Shown here: positions 17,593 through 36,442 of the stretch, in pieces
Position numbering within the stretch: position 1 is the first letter of the stretch
Layout: each line of letters begins with the position of its first letter
Source: Ignavibacteriales bacterium
Lineage (GTDB): Bacteria; Bacteroidota; Ignavibacteria; Ignavibacteriales; Melioribacteraceae
Direction of reading: 5' to 3'
NCBI GenBank assembly: GCA_016234355.1
Contig: JACRFC010000214.1
Location: 1 to 36,442, forward strand
DNA length: 36,442 bases
Notes under the pieces: generated by a model
What the model was told of the DNA's origin: nothing
Seen by the model: only the letters and a program-made list of their open reading frames with translations
Database searches by the model: none
Program-made: the position numbers and the translations under genes

Positions 17593-20157
17593 ATGACAAA
17601 AATTCTTAATCGTCTCTTCATTCTTATAATTTTATTCCAAAACCTACTTTTAGCTCAAATTAAAGTAATATCTCTTCCTCAAAATCAAAGAAATATTTTT
17701 GATCCGATTTTCTTTGACAAAAATGATTACCGAAACGTGGAATTGATAAACTCTAATTGGAAAGTTTTCTATGAAAGTGACTCCGAGAAAAAAATCTCGG
17801 TCTCAATACCGGCAATTTTTGAAGGTGAGGAATCCTTAATATTCGAAAAACAAATTTCTTTATCCAAAACTCAAATTCAAAGTTCACAACTCGTTTTGGG
17901 ATTTCTTGGAATAAATTACTCTGCAGAAATTTCAATCAACGGTTACAATATTTATAAACACTCCGGCGGATCATATCCTTTTGAACTTGCTCTTCCGAAA
18001 GATATCTTAAAAGAAAATTCAGTTATAACCATAAAAGTAAACAACAAACTTGATTCAGAATATTCCATTCCATCAACTCAAAGATTTTTGTTCTCAAGTT
18101 TAAGCGGCGGAATGATTAGGGATGTTTATCTTAAGACGGTATCAACAATTCACATTACTTATAATTCTTTTTCTTATTCGTTTGATCAGAATTTTTCAAA
18201 AGCAGTATTAAATTTTAAGATTGGAATCGGAAACTCCGACTTCAGAACAAATTCTCTTTCCGGTAATGTTATTATAAGAATAAATTTATTTCTTCCTGGC
18301 TCAACTTTTACAATAGCAAAAGGAGATTTCGTTCAAGTAATTTCTCAAGAAGATAACGAAGCTACATGCAGACTTGAAATTAATAACCCGCAATTATGGT
18401 CGCCTCAAACACCAATCAATTATTTATGCGATGTAAGTTTGATACGTAACGGTCAGATAATAGATAAATCCATTAAACAGATTGCGTTCTATCAGTTAAG
18501 AAAAGATGAAACAACTTTCACGCTTAACAGAAATCCGTTTACAATTCAAGGTACTACGTATTTATTTGATGAAACTTCGCTTCGAAGAACTAATGCATAC
18601 AATAAAATAAGAGACGATCTTTTGTTAATTAAGAATACCGGTTTTAATGCAGTTCGTTTTTCAAAACAATATCCTAATCCTTATGCAGTTAAACTTTGTC
18701 AGGAGCTTGGGTTATTTGCTATGATCGAACTTCCCATAAATTCTGTTCCCGAAGAAATTTTATCTCATAATGATTTTCAGCTAAAAGCAGTACAACTTAC
18801 TAAAAATTTCCTTTCCGGTTACAGTGAGTATTCTAATACGATCATAGTTGGAGTTGGCAGTTCTTTTCTTCCTAATTCTGAAATAAGCAGTAATTTTATT
18901 TCGAGTCAAACCAGCACAATAAAAGGAAAGGGATTTTTGTCTTATGCTTCTTTTGTAGGAATTCAAATTACGCAAATTCAAGATTTAGATTTTTATGGAA
19001 TTGAATTATACTCATCTCCAATTGATGAGATTAAGGATCAATTACAAAAATCAATTGATACGTTAGGTAAGAATTCGATTTTCATCAGTGAAGTATCCTA
19101 TCCTAATTATAAGGGAAGCGCTAGCGGATATTTAACAAAATATTCTTCTGATGCCCAAGCAAAATATTTGGGCGATATGATAGATTTATCGCGCCAATTA
19201 AAATTATCCGGAATTATTATTAACAGTTTATATGAATATAAGGGCGAGTATGCATCTCTATACGGTGGTTATTCAGAGAATTATATATACAAATTTGGTT
19301 TACTCGATAAATCCCGCGATCTAAATAGTATTGGTTATAAAGTCCTCGCTGCTAAACTCAGCGGCAATAGTAAAGTTACAATTCCAATTGGTACTCGTAA
19401 AGATGATAACCCAATAATATTTATAATTATTGCACTCTTGCTTTCTATTATTATGGCTGTACTGATCAACACTAAGAAGAAATTCCGTGAAGATTGTACA
19501 CGTGCATTATTGCGCCCATATAATTTTTTTGCCGATGTCCGCGATCACCGAATAATTTCCGGTGTTCATACTGCAATATTAATGTTAATACAGGCCGGAT
19601 CAGTTTCACTTTTGATGACTATATTATTATACTTTTATAAATCAAATATTTTATTAGAAAAGATTGTTTTATCATTTGGCAATCACAATTTATTAAAATT
19701 TGTCTCTTTCCTTTCATGGAATCCGCTAGTTTGTTTTGCTCTGCTTTTTGTTTTAATCATAATAAAGTTTGCTTTGATTTCATCAGTTATAAAATTCGCT
19801 TCTTTATTGTTAAAGACAAAAGTAGAATTTGCCAGCATATTTTATACAGTTGTTTGGGCGTTTTTACCGTTTACAATTCTGCTGACGGTTGAGTTAATTC
19901 TATTTAAGATATTAGTAAACGAAAATTTTAGTGTTATCGTAATTATCTTTTTAATTCTATTTATGTTATGGATACTTCAAAGAATACTAAAAGGCATTTA
20001 TGTAATTTTTGATGTTCGTCCAATGAAGGTTTATATCTATAGTTTTCTCGTTATTATATTAGTAGTTGGTGTGATTTTATTAAAATATCAACTTACCAGT
20101 TCTACTCTCTATTACATTAATAATGCATTTAAACAATACAACTCAATGATTTTCTAG
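17593..20157 (+). CDS. GH2/beta-galactosidase-like exported protein with C-terminal multi-pass membrane domain
   Basis: ORF 854 aa; signal peptide, jelly-roll sugar-binding-like region (LGFLGINYSAEISINGYNIYKHSGGSYPFEL), TIM-barrel-like region (GFNAVRFSKQYPNPYAVKLCQELGLFAMIELP), several TM segments after about residue 600. Confidence 0.75.
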   Translation: MTKILNRLFILIILFQNLLLAQIKVISLPQNQRNIFDPIFFDKNDYRNVELINSNWKVFYESDSEKKISVSIPAIFEGEESLIFEKQISLSKTQIQSSQLVLGFLGINYSAEISINGYNIYKHSGGSYPFELALPKDILKENSVITIKVNNKLDSEYSIPSTQRFLFSSLSGGMIRDVYLKTVSTIHITYNSFSYSFDQNFSKAVLNFKIGIGNSDFRTNSLSGNVIIRINLFLPGSTFTIAKGDFVQVISQEDNEATCRLEINNPQLWSPQTPINYLCDVSLIRNGQIIDKSIKQIAFYQLRKDETTFTLNRNPFTIQGTTYLFDETSLRRTNAYNKIRDDLLLIKNTGFNAVRFSKQYPNPYAVKLCQELGLFAMIELPINSVPEEILSHNDFQLKAVQLTKNFLSGYSEYSNTIIVGVGSSFLPNSEISSNFISSQTSTIKGKGFLSYASFVGIQITQIQDLDFYGIELYSSPIDEIKDQLQKSIDTLGKNSIFISEVSYPNYKGSASGYLTKYSSDAQAKYLGDMIDLSRQLKLSGIIINSLYEYKGEYASLYGGYSENYIYKFGLLDKSRDLNSIGYKVLAAKLSGNSKVTIPIGTRKDDNPIIFIIIALLLSIIMAVLINTKKKFREDCTRALLRPYNFFADVRDHRIISGVHTAILMLIQAGSVSLLMTILLYFYKSNILLEKIVLSFGNHNLLKFVSFLSWNPLVCFALLFVLIIIKFALISSVIKFASLLLKTKVEFASIFYTVVWAFLPFTILLTVELILFKILVNENFSVIVIIFLILFMLWILQRILKGIYVIFDVRPMKVYIYSFLVIILVVGVILLKYQLTSSTLYYINNAFKQYNSMIF

Positions 20158-20166
20158 AGGCGCATT

Positions 20167-23100
20167 TTGTTTCTATCGAAATTAGAAATATTTGGTTTTA
20201 AATCTTTTGCAAATAAAACATTAATAAATTTTAATCGCGGCATTACAGGAATTGTGGGTCCCAACGGCTGCGGTAAAACAAATATAGTTGATGCGATCCG
20301 CTGGGTTCTTGGCGAACAGAGAACAACGACTCTCCGCAGCGACAAGATGGAAAACGTTATCTTCAATGGTACAAGAGGGAAGAAGCCAATGGGTATGTCG
20401 GAGGTTTCTCTTACACTAGTAAACGATCAAGGCGTTCTTCCAACAGAATATACGGAAGTAACTATAACCAGACGAATCTTCCGTTCCGGTGAAAGCGAAT
20501 ATTTGTTAAATAAAAATATTTGCCGCTTGAAAGATATTACTAACCTTTTCATGGATACCGGAATGGGTACAAACGCTTATTCAGTTATTGAATTGAAAAT
20601 GGTTGAAACTATTCTTAGCAGTAAAACAGAAGAACGAAGAAGAATGTTTGAAGAAGCAGCAGGGGTTAATAAATATAAATTACGCCGCCGTCTATCGCTA
20701 AAAAAACTTGATGATGTAAAATCCGATCTTACACGTGTTAATGATATTGTCTCTGAAGTTGAAAAGACTGTCCGCTCGCTTGAACGTCAAGCAAAACGAG
20801 CTGATCAGTATAATCAGGTCCAAGTTGTTTTAAGAGAAAAAGAGATTGACCTTGCTGAACGCGATTTTGCTTCGTTAAATCTTAAATTAAGCATATTAAA
20901 AAATGATATATCAGAACACTCGGTTAAGAAAGATCAGATTGATCTTGATATCAGAAAAATTGAAAATGAATTGATCGAGTACCGGAATAGAATTAATGCT
21001 ATTGATTCTGAACTACAGTCTAAGCGGGACGAACTTTCTTCAAACACTGAACAACTCCATAATACACAAAAAAATATTTCTGTTTCGGAAGAACGATTTA
21101 AATCTCTTATTTATAACCACGAACGATTACAAAGAGAAATTGCAGAACTGCAACAGTCATTTGAAGATGCTGATCAGTACATATTACGAAGTAACAACGA
21201 ACTTAAATCTCACTCGGATAGTTTATCAGATAAGAACAATGAAATTATTGATAACGAACAAACAATAGTTGAAAAAAAGGAATCATTAGAGAGTAAACGT
21301 TTACAATTAAAGCAAAGTAACGAAGAGAAATTTGATCTACTTCGTGAAATCTCAGACAAGGAAAATTACTTAGCTAGTTTAAGGAAAGAGCTTGCTAATC
21401 ATAATTCTAACATTGAAAAGCTTAATTATAAAATACAAAGCATTACTAATACAATCGCAAAGACAGTCGGATTTATCGAAGAACTCAACGCCGAAAAATC
21501 CAGCGCTGAAAATAAACTTAAAGAAGCAGGATTATTAATTGCTCTTCGTGAAAAAGAAAAACAAGAACTCGAGCATGAATTAAATTCACTTAAACAAAAA
21601 GAGATTGAAGAAAAAACTTTACTTGCCGGACTCAAAGAAAAAATTGCTTTCATTCAAACGCTGATCGCTAATCTTGAAGGTATTTCGAAAGGTGCTAAAG
21701 TACTTTTAGAAAATAAAGAGTGGACAAAGAAGAATAAAAATATTTTTGCCGATGTTGGAAATACACAAGAAAAATACAGGTTCGCACTTGAAGCTGCCTT
21801 AAAATCTGTGTTGAATAATCTACTCGTTGATAGTTTTGATGATCTTCAAAATGCGATCAATTACTTAAAGAAAAATGACCTCGGCAAAGCTTCGTTCTAT
21901 CTGCTTCGCTCGAATAACAATTCTAAAAAATCTCTTCTTGATAGTTTAACATTGTTCAATCTTAAGAGAAAAGAAAAAAAACTTGTGAAGGAAGAATTCT
22001 TCATGGGTTGGGCAAAGGATTTTGTAGAAACCGAAAACAATTGGCTTCCCTATTTTGAACAAGTTTTATCAAAAATTGCTGTTACTTCCGATCTTAAATC
22101 TGCGATTGAGCTGAATTCAAAATATCCGGATTTCAATTTCACAACTTTAGATGGTGACTTTGTAAAACATGATGGAGTAGTTGAAGCCGGTTCATTGCCC
22201 AAACAAGATGAAACAATTTTTGGAAGAAGACAGCTTCTTGATAATTTGATCAAGGAGTATCCAAAGCACGAATCTAATCTTGCCAAAGTGCAAGCTTTTA
22301 TTGCTGAGACGGAAGGGAAAATATCGCGGATTGACTTAAAGAACCTTAGCAACAGCGAAAAACTTATTTCGAACGATATATCAAATATCGAAAAGCAAAT
22401 CTCACAGTTCGAATTTGAGAAAAATAAAGCAAACGAAGAGATCGAGTCTTCCCAAAAAGATATTCAAGAACTCGCAGATAAATCAAATTCGCTTTTTGTC
22501 CAAGCATCAGGATTGGATAAAGAGATCAATGTTCTTCTTGAGAAAAAGAATTCGGTTGATGAAAACATTTCAAAGCATGAAAATGAATTAAGCGACTTTG
22601 AAAATGATTTTAATCAATTTGTAGATCTTCAGAACGAAAGAAAACTTAAACTTGAAAGATTAAAAGGACAGATCGAAAATATTCACAATGCAATTAAGCG
22701 GACCGAAGCAAATCAGTTATCAATTACAAACGGAATAGAAAAACGTAAGACCGATTTGCAATCAAATGAAGTTGAGACTAATTCTTTACAAGAAATGATT
22801 GATCAATCTAATTTATCATTAGTTCAAATTAATACATCCCGAACAACATTACTTACCGAAGAAAAAGAGATCAATGACAAATTAAAAGTTGTTAAGGATG
22901 AAGCAGCACAATTTGAAAATCAGCTTAATGCATTAAGGAATGAACGGCAGACGGTTTCGGATCAAGTTCATTCTTTTGAAATAAAAGAAAATGAGTTCAA
23001 ACTCCGCTCTGAAAATTTGATCGAGCATATTAAAGAAAACTATTCGATCGAATTGGCTTTAAAGCAATTTGACGATCTTGATGCTTTTGATTTTGAAGGT

Positions 23101-33375: not shown

Positions 33376-34377
33376 ATGAGAATTTCTGTTCTCGGCGCCG
33401 GAAGCTGGGGAACTACCTTAGCTATTCTTCTTCATTTCAACGGGCACAATGTTACAATTTGGGAATACAAACGAAGTTACGCTAAAACTCTAAATCGTTC
33501 ACGTGAAAATAAAGTTTACCTTCCCGGAATAAAAATTCCTAAAGAAATTACAATCTCACATTCACTTTCAGAAAGCTGCGAGAATAAACATATGATCGTT
33601 CTCGCTGTCCCGTCCCAATTTATCCGAAGTGTATTGAGAGAAATGAAGAAATATAATTTTAGTAACACAACTTTTGTTAGTGTAGCTAAAGGTATTGAGA
33701 AAGATACTTTATTGACAGTTTCACAAATAATTAAAGACGAATTGAAAAATATATCTGATTCCAGCATTGGAGTTTTATCCGGACCAAGTATTGCAGGTGA
33801 AGTGTCAAGAAAAATTCCCACAGCTGTTGTTGCCGCTTCGAAAGATCCTTTTACTGCTAAACAAATTCAATCGGCTTTTATTACATCATATTTCAGAGTT
33901 TATTCATCTACTGATATAGTTGGAGTTGAATACGGCGGTGCTCTGAAAAATGTAATTGCTATAGGTGCCGGAATTATTGACGGGGCAAAATTTGGAGATA
34001 ATACAAAAGCTGCTATCATGACTCGAGGCATAGCGGAAATATCCCGACTTGGAATTGCTCTTGGTGCTCGTCCTGAAACTTTTGCCGGCTTATCCGGAGT
34101 GGGCGATCTAATTGTTACATGTATGAGCAAGCACAGCCGTAATAGATTTGTTGGTGAACAACTTGGCAGAGGAAAAAAACTTAAAGACATTTTGAAAAAA
34201 ATGCAGATGGTTGCCGAAGGTGTTGAAACCTGCCGGTCGGTACATCAACTTTCTCTCAAACATAAAATCGAAACGCCAATAGCCAAAGCAGTCTATACTA
34301 TTTTATTCGAAGAGAAAGACCCGACCAAGGCTACATACGAATTGATGACCCGCGATATGAAAGCAGAAGACGAGTAA
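33376..34377 (+). CDS. gpsA: NAD(P)H-dependent glycerol-3-phosphate dehydrogenase
   Basis: ORF 333 aa; ISVLGAGSWGTTLAILL, VLSGPSIAGEV, EYGGALKNVIAIGAGI, GVGDLIVTCMSKHSRNR. Confidence 0.97.
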   Translation: MRISVLGAGSWGTTLAILLHFNGHNVTIWEYKRSYAKTLNRSRENKVYLPGIKIPKEITISHSLSESCENKHMIVLAVPSQFIRSVLREMKKYNFSNTTFVSVAKGIEKDTLLTVSQIIKDELKNISDSSIGVLSGPSIAGEVSRKIPTAVVAASKDPFTAKQIQSAFITSYFRVYSSTDIVGVEYGGALKNVIAIGAGIIDGAKFGDNTKAAIMTRGIAEISRLGIALGARPETFAGLSGVGDLIVTCMSKHSRNRFVGEQLGRGKKLKDILKKMQMVAEGVETCRSVHQLSLKHKIETPIAKAVYTILFEEKDPTKATYELMTRDMKAEDE

Positions 34378-34493
34378 TATATTACCTCATTTTTCATAGA
34401 CTGTTTTCAATAAAAAGTTATAATTATTAATTGGATTTTGTATTAAATTATAGTGAGGAATAAGCGGGTGGTTATGATAATTTCTTTTCGGTT

Positions 34494-35747
34494 ATGAATA
34501 CCAAATCTTTTTCTTACGTTGATCTCTTTGCGGGCGCGTCGGGACTTTCTGAGGGATTCCGTCAGGCTGGTTTTCGACCGGTAGCCCACATTGAAAGAGA
34601 TGAAAATGCCTGTCTTACTATTAAAACTAGAATTGCTTATCACTATTGCAAAGATAATAACCTGGAAAATTTTTATAAAGACTATTATTACGAAAAGATT
34701 GATAGAGAAGATTTCTATTCGGCAATCCCATTTGATAAAACCGATACTGTTGTTAATAAAGAAATTTCAGATGATAATTTTGAATTTATCATTTCAAAAA
34801 TAAATTTAGCAAAGAAACAACTTGATGTAGATAAAATTTTTGCGCTCATCGGTGGACCGCCGTGCCAGGCTTATTCCGTAAGAGGAAGAAAAGCTAATGA
34901 GCATAAAAAAAAATATGACCAGAGAATTTATTATTACAAACTGTACGCCCGGTTTTTGAGAGAACTTAAACCAAAGTTATTTGTCTTCGAGAATGTTCCC
35001 GGTCTAACCTCATTTGAAGGCGGTTACATTTTTGATGATCTACGCGAAACATTAGCAAATGAGGGATACACACTTGATTACAAAATATTAAATGCTTCTG
35101 ATTTTGGAGTATTACAGGATAGAAAAAGAATAGTTATTATTGGATGGAAAAATGAATTATCTTTTTCATATCCTTCATTTGAAAAAATTAAATACAACGC
35201 CGTTGTTTATGATTTGCTTAACGATCTTCCTGTATTAAAACCCGGCTCATATAATCCGCCACTTTACTATTCTAATAATTCAACTTCTTATCTGGATGAA
35301 AGTAAAATTAGAAACGGGTATAAAAAAGTAAGTTTGCATAACACTAGGCCTCATAACGCTATTGATCTTGAGATTTATAAACGGGCAATTGAATTATGGA
35401 ATGCAAAACAACAAAGATTGAAATACAGTTCTTTACCTAAAAGATTGAGAACACATAAAAACGTTGAAGGATTTCTTGATCGTTTTAAGGTTGTTGCAGG
35501 TGATGCAAAGTATTCCCACACATTAATTGCCCACATTGCCAAAGACGGTCATTATTATATACATCCGGATATTAAACAATGCCGTTCCATTTCTGTACGT
35601 GAAGCGGCGAGAATTCAATCTTTTCCGGATAATTTCATTTTTGAAGGTCCAAGAACTGCTGCATTCACTCAAATCGGAAATGCTGTTCCACCTTTGATGG
35701 CTAGTACTTTAGCCAAGGGGATTAAAAAACAACTAGAGAGTTTATGA
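34494..35747 (+). CDS. DNA (cytosine-5-)-methyltransferase
   Basis: ORF 417 aa; motif I YVDLFAGASGLSEGFRQAGF, IV GGPPCQAYS, VI VFENVPGL, VIII LQDRKRIVIIGW, IX RSISVREAARIQSFPDNF, X QIGNAVPPLMA. Confidence 0.96.
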   Translation: MNTKSFSYVDLFAGASGLSEGFRQAGFRPVAHIERDENACLTIKTRIAYHYCKDNNLENFYKDYYYEKIDREDFYSAIPFDKTDTVVNKEISDDNFEFIISKINLAKKQLDVDKIFALIGGPPCQAYSVRGRKANEHKKKYDQRIYYYKLYARFLRELKPKLFVFENVPGLTSFEGGYIFDDLRETLANEGYTLDYKILNASDFGVLQDRKRIVIIGWKNELSFSYPSFEKIKYNAVVYDLLNDLPVLKPGSYNPPLYYSNNSTSYLDESKIRNGYKKVSLHNTRPHNAIDLEIYKRAIELWNAKQQRLKYSSLPKRLRTHKNVEGFLDRFKVVAGDAKYSHTLIAHIAKDGHYYIHPDIKQCRSISVREAARIQSFPDNFIFEGPRTAAFTQIGNAVPPLMASTLAKGIKKQLESL

Positions 35748-36442
35748 GTATCACCTTTAGAGATATTTTAAATCAAAAGACCTGGAATCGTTATGAAGAT
35801 TATATAACTGAAGGTATTCGTCAATATTCAAAAGAACTTTCTGATGATATCTCCGAAGGAAGAAAACATAAAAAGCAAATCCGCGATTACCTCGAGAAAC
35901 ACTTCGATATAAAAAAAATACCTACAGATTTAAATTATGAAAAAGAATTACTTATTAAAGGCGAAGTTGTAGGAATAGATGGAACTATTGCCACACATAA
36001 GACAATTACAGGAACAATGGCACAGTTAGGTGTTGTTGCGGTTAACTATCTTAACGAAAAAATTCAGCATTCATTTTTCATTTCAGAAGCAAGATATAAA
36101 CAAGACATAGAAGATGTTGCAGAATATTTGTATGCACATGAACCAATTAATAAAGTAGTTTCAAATCCAGTTCTTCGAGCCGCTTTACAGGTCAGGGAAA
36201 GGGAACTTGGACTCGACGATCAATTCAAACAAAAATATAAAATCTATCATGGTCCTCTAATTCCATTTGAAATGTTAGCCAATCCCGGAAAAGCTGAATT
36301 GAAGCTTCTTGATGTAACTCTTGAAATTCTCGAAAAAATAATTGCAAATAAAAAATGTTTTAGTATAGTTTCAAGATCACAAAATGACGCATACATGAGA
36401 ATTGGTTTATCACTTAACAAAGGTGAGTACATTCAATTAAAA
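35744..36442 (+). CDS. Partial ORF (runs off window), candidate NurA-domain nuclease
   Basis: 233 codons without stop from ATG 35744 overlapping the MTase stop (ATGA); GEVVGIDGTIATHKTITGTMAQLGVVAVNY and KIYHGPLIPFEML resemble NurA acidic motifs; absent from the ORF track because it has no stop in the window. Confidence 0.55.
   Translation, partial: MSITFRDILNQKTWNRYEDYITEGIRQYSKELSDDISEGRKHKKQIRDYLEKHFDIKKIPTDLNYEKELLIKGEVVGIDGTIATHKTITGTMAQLGVVAVNYLNEKIQHSFFISEARYKQDIEDVAEYLYAHEPINKVVSNPVLRAALQVRERELGLDDQFKQKYKIYHGPLIPFEMLANPGKAELKLLDVTLEILEKIIANKKCFSIVSRSQNDAYMRIGLSLNKGEYIQLK

Follow-up and report, generated by a model that had tools for sequence, protein, structure and literature searches.

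At the end of a 36,442-nucleotide stretch of DNA from an Ignavibacteriales bacterium (the window, meaning the whole of the sequence analysed here), we have characterized two genes that most likely open an operon of five to six genes. In close relatives this operon encodes, in order, a C5 cytosine methyltransferase, a NurA-like protein, a HerA-type ATPase, a kinase and a receiver protein. We think it probable, inferring function from the sequences, that the operon would serve in modification-guarded restriction carried out by the NurA-like protein with HerA. The operon joins two lines of work that the literature searched does not connect: methyltransferase-kinase-receiver gene sets, which lie beside restriction-modification genes and have no known effector, and HerA-nuclease complexes, which kill phages by a poorly understood discrimination of self from non-self. 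If this reading is right, each line gains its missing half, and a compact gene set becomes available in which histidine-aspartate phosphotransfer may switch restriction on.

The window is an entire contig (G000:C150) of a 2.23 Mb genome that is 73% complete and divided among 235 contigs. Its genes and motifs described here all lie on the plus strand, and a run of housekeeping genes, of which gpsA is the last, precedes the operon. Reading the sequence placed ORF A at 34494-35747 and ORF B at 35744-36442, confirming the 4-bp ATGA overlap that the initial annotation had reported between a C5 methyltransferase and an ORF open to the end of the window. This start-stop overlap (35744-35747) is translational coupling, and the same 4 bp are shared in five related loci (L005, L007, L008, L009 and L010). 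ORF A is complete (417 aa) and, judged by its sequence, is an intact C5 cytosine DNA methyltransferase: it matches PF00145 (E 2.5e-61, Pfam), TIGR00675 (4.8e-49, NCBIfam) and, from end to end, the PADLOC model DrmMII PDLC02649 (1.3e-160, 533 bits). A motif scan found PCQ at residue 123 (the catalytic motif, 34860-34868), ENV at 166, QDRKR at 208 and GNAVPP at 395, all intact.

The reading frame of ORF B remains open up to the contig end at 36442, and the contig edge cuts the predicted NurA-like nuclease (35744-36442) after the first 233 of about 358 residues. As the window is the whole contig, its continuation was taken from relatives. Searches of the window's own genome found no continuation of the operon beyond ORF B, no HerA and no HEF_HK kinase, absences that say little at 73% completeness, and likewise no match to PF09376; HerA and the later genes are presumably present there, as judged from the relatives. 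ORF B is 91% identical to a 358-aa protein of a sister species (locus L005), and the two sequences differ at 22, 6 and 81 first, second and third codon positions, with dN 0.048 and dS 1.10. Thus, ORF B is a real gene that is evolving as a protein.

The initial annotation had pointed out an IDGT motif followed by HGPLIPFEML in ORF B, and both are present and kept, with minor changes, in seven close relatives. The resemblance to NurA that was drawn from them holds in part. An AlphaFold2 model of the NurA-like protein built from ten sequences was of modest quality (pLDDT 59.5, pTM 0.62); an earlier model from eight close homologues (pLDDT 40) was discarded, and the addition of two distant homologues gave the value of 59.5. 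When the modest model was compared with 350,542 PDB chains by Foldseek, the NurA fold ranked first (3taz_A, E 0.024, probability 0.95) and second (3taz_B, E 0.062, probability 0.38), and the next, unrelated match stood at E 0.2 and probability 0.06. A profile comparison by hhalign against 26 canonical NurA proteins of the same phylum gave an end-to-end but weak alignment with E 0.007 at a probability of 5%, compared with E 0.17-0.34 for four unrelated control alignments; it superseded an unreliable MAFFT alignment in which a single distant homologue had been set against two NurA proteins of Bacteroidota. Furthermore, a HerA partner adjoins the NurA-like gene in all nine loci with a readable gene downstream. 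Against these findings, PF09376 matched neither the window fragment (E<=1) nor the full-length homologues (E<=0.1), and searches of ORF B against Pfam, NCBIfam and PADLOC gave nothing beyond chance level, including the matches to JetA (E 0.01), DUF3067 and TetR_C_8. Matches to MmpL5 in a PDB sequence search (E 0.3) were also rejected, with nothing real found.

The active site departs from that of canonical NurA at two of the three recognisable positions. The motif I aspartate (DGS or DGT in canonical proteins) is present as D79 within GIDGT (35972-35986), where the profile alignment matches it to the essential NurA aspartate; its counterpart in the Thermococcus kodakarensis enzyme, Asp49, is essential (PMC12977600). 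It is kept in all homologues except that of G854. In motif II (HGPLIPFE, 36248-36271), the same alignment places His169 at the aspartate of the canonical DGTLI, and this histidine is retained in every homologue with the same single exception. The C-terminal histidine (GYP...EAH) is replaced in relatives by Asp320 within GFPLLIDYAD, the window fragment stopping before this point. These changes (Asp to His and His to Asp) could mean changed or lost catalysis. Fold, profile and motif I agree, while a family match is absent and two active-site positions are altered, and we therefore name the protein NurA-like and keep it outside PF09376; by its model and sequence it is supported only as such. The exceptional homologue (L071, 9358-10572, from G854) has lost D79, H85, H169 and D320 and looks catalytically dead, next to an intact HerA. 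The remaining full-length homologues retain all four residues, and their joint loss in one protein fits their forming an active site.

Among 84,980 species genomes scanned, seven loci encode close relatives of ORF B (67-91% identity), in metagenome-assembled genomes of Ignavibacteria and Bacteroidota and in the cultured Hydrotalea flava (L007). The order of C5 methyltransferase, NurA-like protein (358 aa) and HerA is the same in all seven, and in the six unbroken loci HerA is followed by the kinase (~710 aa) and then the receiver (~395 aa). In the seventh, L005, from the genus of the window, the contig ends inside HerA; another contig of that genome (L022) starts at the next HerA residues and continues with the kinase, the receiver and an HhH-GPD protein, and the sequences suggest that the two join. 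Genes are spaced by -17 to +31 bp, except for a 77-bp overlap (-77 bp) of an assigned HTH ORF in L010; small HTH genes were read 5' of the methyltransferase in L010 and L011. A further same-genus match to ORF B (L004, E 2e-4) sits among unrelated ORFs and was rejected. No homologue of ORF B was found in 72,556 plasmids, in phages or in IMG/VR contigs.

The HerA partner that had been predicted to lie outside the window was thus found directly after the NurA-like gene in seven close and two distant relatives. The protein matches DUF87 (3.4e-28), its best solved relatives are HerA, and it carries a Walker A motif (GTVGSGKT) and FIEEAH. The kinase, receiver and Vsr, Mig-like or HNH genes that the relatives also carry had no place in the initial annotation, and it is the kinase/paraMORC and receiver genes that connect the locus with a family already described in association with restriction-modification. 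The kinase has an N-terminal HATPase_c_3 domain, as in paraMORCs, a central HEF_HK domain with a THEF H-box and a C-terminal HATPase_c domain; in L008 the patterns for the H-box and for one C-terminal motif had no match. HEF_HK scored over its cut-off in four of the seven relative genomes (for example, 28.8 bits in L022 against a cut-off of 24.1), below it in two, and was absent from one. The receiver of L006 fell just under the 27-bit cut-off of Pfam Response_reg_2 (25.2 bits) and that of L022 gave no match, and the DD and LDW acceptor residues are conserved across all seven sequences. In L073 and L074 (G290 and G213), HEF_HK kinase and receiver-like genes adjoin genes that resemble, by sequence, those of DNA sulfur modification (DndC-like), which suggests that the kinase/receiver module is not tied to a single type of DNA modification.

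The operon carries variable accessory genes at one end. Vsr genes occur in L007, L008, L009 and L011 (match 8e-35), those of L008 and L009 being assigned by sequence likeness to two Pfam-tested Vsr proteins, and a Mig-like glycosylase, whose best PDB relative is the G-T mismatch enzyme 1kea, occurs in L006 and L022. A T:G mismatch enzyme is therefore found in six of the seven loci, as expected beside a writer of 5-methylcytosine. Three of the operons, those of L008, L009 and L010, have an HNH_2 gene at their end (PADLOC PDLC04132, 3e-80; type II HNH model, 1.9e-43). The proposal that the system works without a classical restriction endonuclease therefore stands for four of the seven loci (L005/L022, L006, L007 and L011), in which the only accessory is Vsr or the Mig-like protein; the other three carry the HNH gene, which is possibly one.

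The genes of the operon have not evolved in step. Across 21 locus pairs, the identities of the NurA-like protein, HerA and the kinase covary (Spearman 0.78-0.92), and those of the methyltransferase and the receiver show little relation to this core (Spearman -0.21 to 0.25); the pairs are non-independent and the coefficients purely descriptive. For example, L007 and L010 share 89, 94 and 86 per cent identity in the NurA-like protein, HerA and the kinase, compared with 54 per cent in the methyltransferase and 36 per cent in the receiver. The NurA-like protein and HerA are the best conserved proteins of the operon and are present in every locus. The simplest reading of these sequences would be a constant NurA-HerA-kinase core with exchanged or fast-evolving ends. 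The independent variation of receiver and methyltransferase is as a self-recognition module would show, and the receiver may help to recognise the target. This mosaic of core and exchanged ends yields a concrete prediction as to the protein in charge of target recognition.

A second architecture was found in two Bacteroidota genomes, G403 and G854, in which distant NurA-like homologues (24-26% identity) are again followed by HerA. Upstream of the NurA-like gene lie an M78 peptidase and two small proteins, one of which resembles sigma-70 region 2. A DNA methyltransferase of the N6/N4 type is also upstream in G403; the methyltransferase of G854 was assigned by likeness. This independent pairing of a methyltransferase with a NurA-like protein and HerA supports a functional link. 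In G403, HerA is split by an in-frame stop into two adjacent ORFs in the same frame (L014, 7806-9647), as a pseudogene, a sequencing error or recoding would produce.

The operon overlaps with several described systems. The systems of C5 methyltransferase, HEF_HK and Response_reg_2 proteins (Bellieny-Rabelo et al., 2021; PMC8011034) share with it a C5 methyltransferase gene 5' of an adjoining kinase/paraMORC and receiver, with Vsr or HNH_2 near. However, in those published loci, and in the HEF_HK loci with a C5 methyltransferase that we read, the methyltransferase lies directly beside a kinase of ~970-1000 aa, with a receiver of ~530 aa, whereas here the NurA-like and HerA genes intervene, the kinase has ~710 aa and the receiver ~395 aa. 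A C5 methyltransferase is near HEF_HK and the receiver in all seven loci, with these two genes in between. PMC8011034 makes no mention of HerA or NurA, and searches of ten HEF_HK regions of the phylum with the operon's HerA and with both NurA profiles were negative; five of the ten hold the methyltransferase-kinase-receiver trio and two a kinase beside apparent sulfur-modification genes. In the restriction-modification operons of the paraMORC/MORC type (Iyer et al., 2008; PMC2292703), DNA methylases and Vsr and HNH nucleases likewise accompany a GHKL ATPase, but the helicases are of superfamily II, HerA and FtsK being unmentioned in the text. Archaeal HerA-NurA, DUF4297-HerA and SIR2-HerA share a nuclease gene directly upstream of HerA, but these two-gene systems have neither a methyltransferase nor a kinase and receiver, and HerA 'capture' systems have been described without NurA (PMC10853773, PMC12839542). 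DISARM class 2 has in common the DrmMII profile match of ORF A, but DrmA, DrmB and DrmC had no match in searches that covered the proteins of the operon and large ORFs beside it. From MADS, only HerA matches mad8 (8.3e-20), below the plain HerA models, and no other mad1-mad8 protein is in the operon; we adopted neither DISARM nor MADS as the explanation. Thus, the methyltransferase-kinase-receiver trio has already been published, and its combination with a NurA-like protein and HerA was not found in the defence and protein-family libraries and the literature searched, a scope with most subscription journals and bioRxiv outside it.

How might such an operon work? The methyltransferase, with its catalytic motifs, would mark host DNA at a specific sequence, and this methylation would protect the host. 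By analogy with archaeal HerA-NurA and DUF4297-HerA, the NurA-like protein and HerA would form a ring-shaped, DNA-translocating nuclease. The kinase/paraMORC and receiver may sense unmodified or invading DNA and license this nuclease, gated by phosphate exchange from kinase to receiver, for which the domains and acceptor residues are in place. Vsr or the Mig-like glycosylase would, as in their families, repair T:G mismatches left by deaminated 5-methylcytosine, and an entry cut might come from the HNH protein in the loci that have one. Unmarked invading DNA would then be destroyed by the motor-driven nuclease. In E. coli, complexes of HerA with a nuclease act against phages (PMC11291478). A more specific version, in which phosphorelay gates NurA-like/HerA restriction, the receiver reads the methyltransferase's site, these two form an exchangeable specificity cassette around the constant NurA-HerA-kinase core, and restriction under two-component control needs no classical endonuclease, is a possibility that we put forward tentatively.

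Plain type II restriction-modification was considered and not adopted as the best explanation. On that account, the methyltransferase and the HNH protein would form an ordinary type II system, in which the NurA-like protein, HerA, kinase and receiver play an accessory or clean-up part, such as the degradation of DNA inwards from HNH-made ends. The HNH_2 genes that end three of the operons, with their strong matches to PDLC04132 and the type II HNH model, suit it, and among the nucleases encoded near Response_reg_2 genes HNH_2 is the most frequent (PMC8011034); however, the four loci that have neither HNH nor another classical endonuclease, and the never-missing, best-conserved NurA-like and HerA pair, make it unlikely. 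We regard as rather improbable an abortive infection system, in which the kinase and receiver sense infection, NurA-HerA attacks all DNA and the cell dies, with methylation not the main discriminator. A two-component-like sensor would suit triggered killing, and DUF4297-HerA does degrade both host and phage DNA (PMC11291478), but the tightly coupled methyltransferase of all seven loci, with another in G403 and G854, points instead to self-marking.

The genes could also form a DNA- or mismatch-repair operon with no part in defence, in which end resection would fall to NurA-HerA and the repair of deaminated 5-methylcytosine to Vsr or Mig, the paraMORC acting like MutL. Vsr and Mig-like proteins are indeed repair enzymes and end resection was proposed for archaeal HerA-NurA, but a 2026 study doubts resection even in archaea and prefers antiviral defence (PMC12977600). 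Furthermore, the operon is rare and sporadic (in one of 11 other same-genus genomes; one other, distant, of 396 in the phylum), sits after gpsA where relatives have recG and adjoins defence and mobility genes, all of which leaves repair very improbable. A final question cuts across these readings, namely whether ORF B is a nuclease or instead serves HerA as a structural or adaptor subunit, its fold being derived from NurA. The exchange of the canonical Asp and His for His and Asp, and the G854 homologue that retains HerA after losing all four residues, are what an adaptor might show; yet conservation of these residues in the other full-length homologues, with a single joint loss, looks like an active site under selection, and we consider an adaptor doubtful. 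Modification-guarded restriction by the NurA-like protein and HerA remains our preferred reading.

The genomic position of the operon shows a recent lateral acquisition, because it follows gpsA where relatives have recG, and lies beside defence, toxin-antitoxin and transfer genes. The gpsA-like gene (33376-34377), a conserved upstream neighbour outside the system, is found in all 12 same-genus genomes, the window's own included. Nine of the other genomes have recG (725 aa, with Pfam RecG domains) after it, one of them with an intervening 464-aa ORF, and the window has the operon there instead. In blastn comparisons with ten gpsA-recG junctions, similarity ended at about 34376-34394, a short way beyond the stop codon of gpsA. 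This left junction continues into a presumed promoter region (34378-34493); the right junction lies past the contig end. The intervening ORF, from the genome of a different species (G001; L097, 363-1757), is on the minus strand and unrelated, and the junction may accept insertions repeatedly. In the window's own bin, a second gpsA C-terminus (G000:C5:1-6000, L095), 91% identical in nucleotides to that of the window, leads directly to recG without the operon, and two related populations have probably been binned together.

Among the neighbours of the operon in relatives, L008 has relaxase and TraG-like transfer ATPase genes upstream and an adjoining PADLOC candidate defence system, PDC-M62 (ATPase and HNH-like protein; 17811-20637). 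L006 has a pair of SocA/Panacea-domain and Fic-domain proteins just 3' of the operon (17692-19027), likely a toxin-antitoxin unit, and HigB and HipA are neighbours in L011 and L010, respectively. Homologues of ORF B were found in three of 200 genomes of the Hydrotalea family, and none new among 395 genomes of the class of G403. Finally, in one genome of the window's genus (L016, G004:C108), the gene for a HerA-like ATPase comes after that for a canonical NurA, a pair separate from the operon described here.
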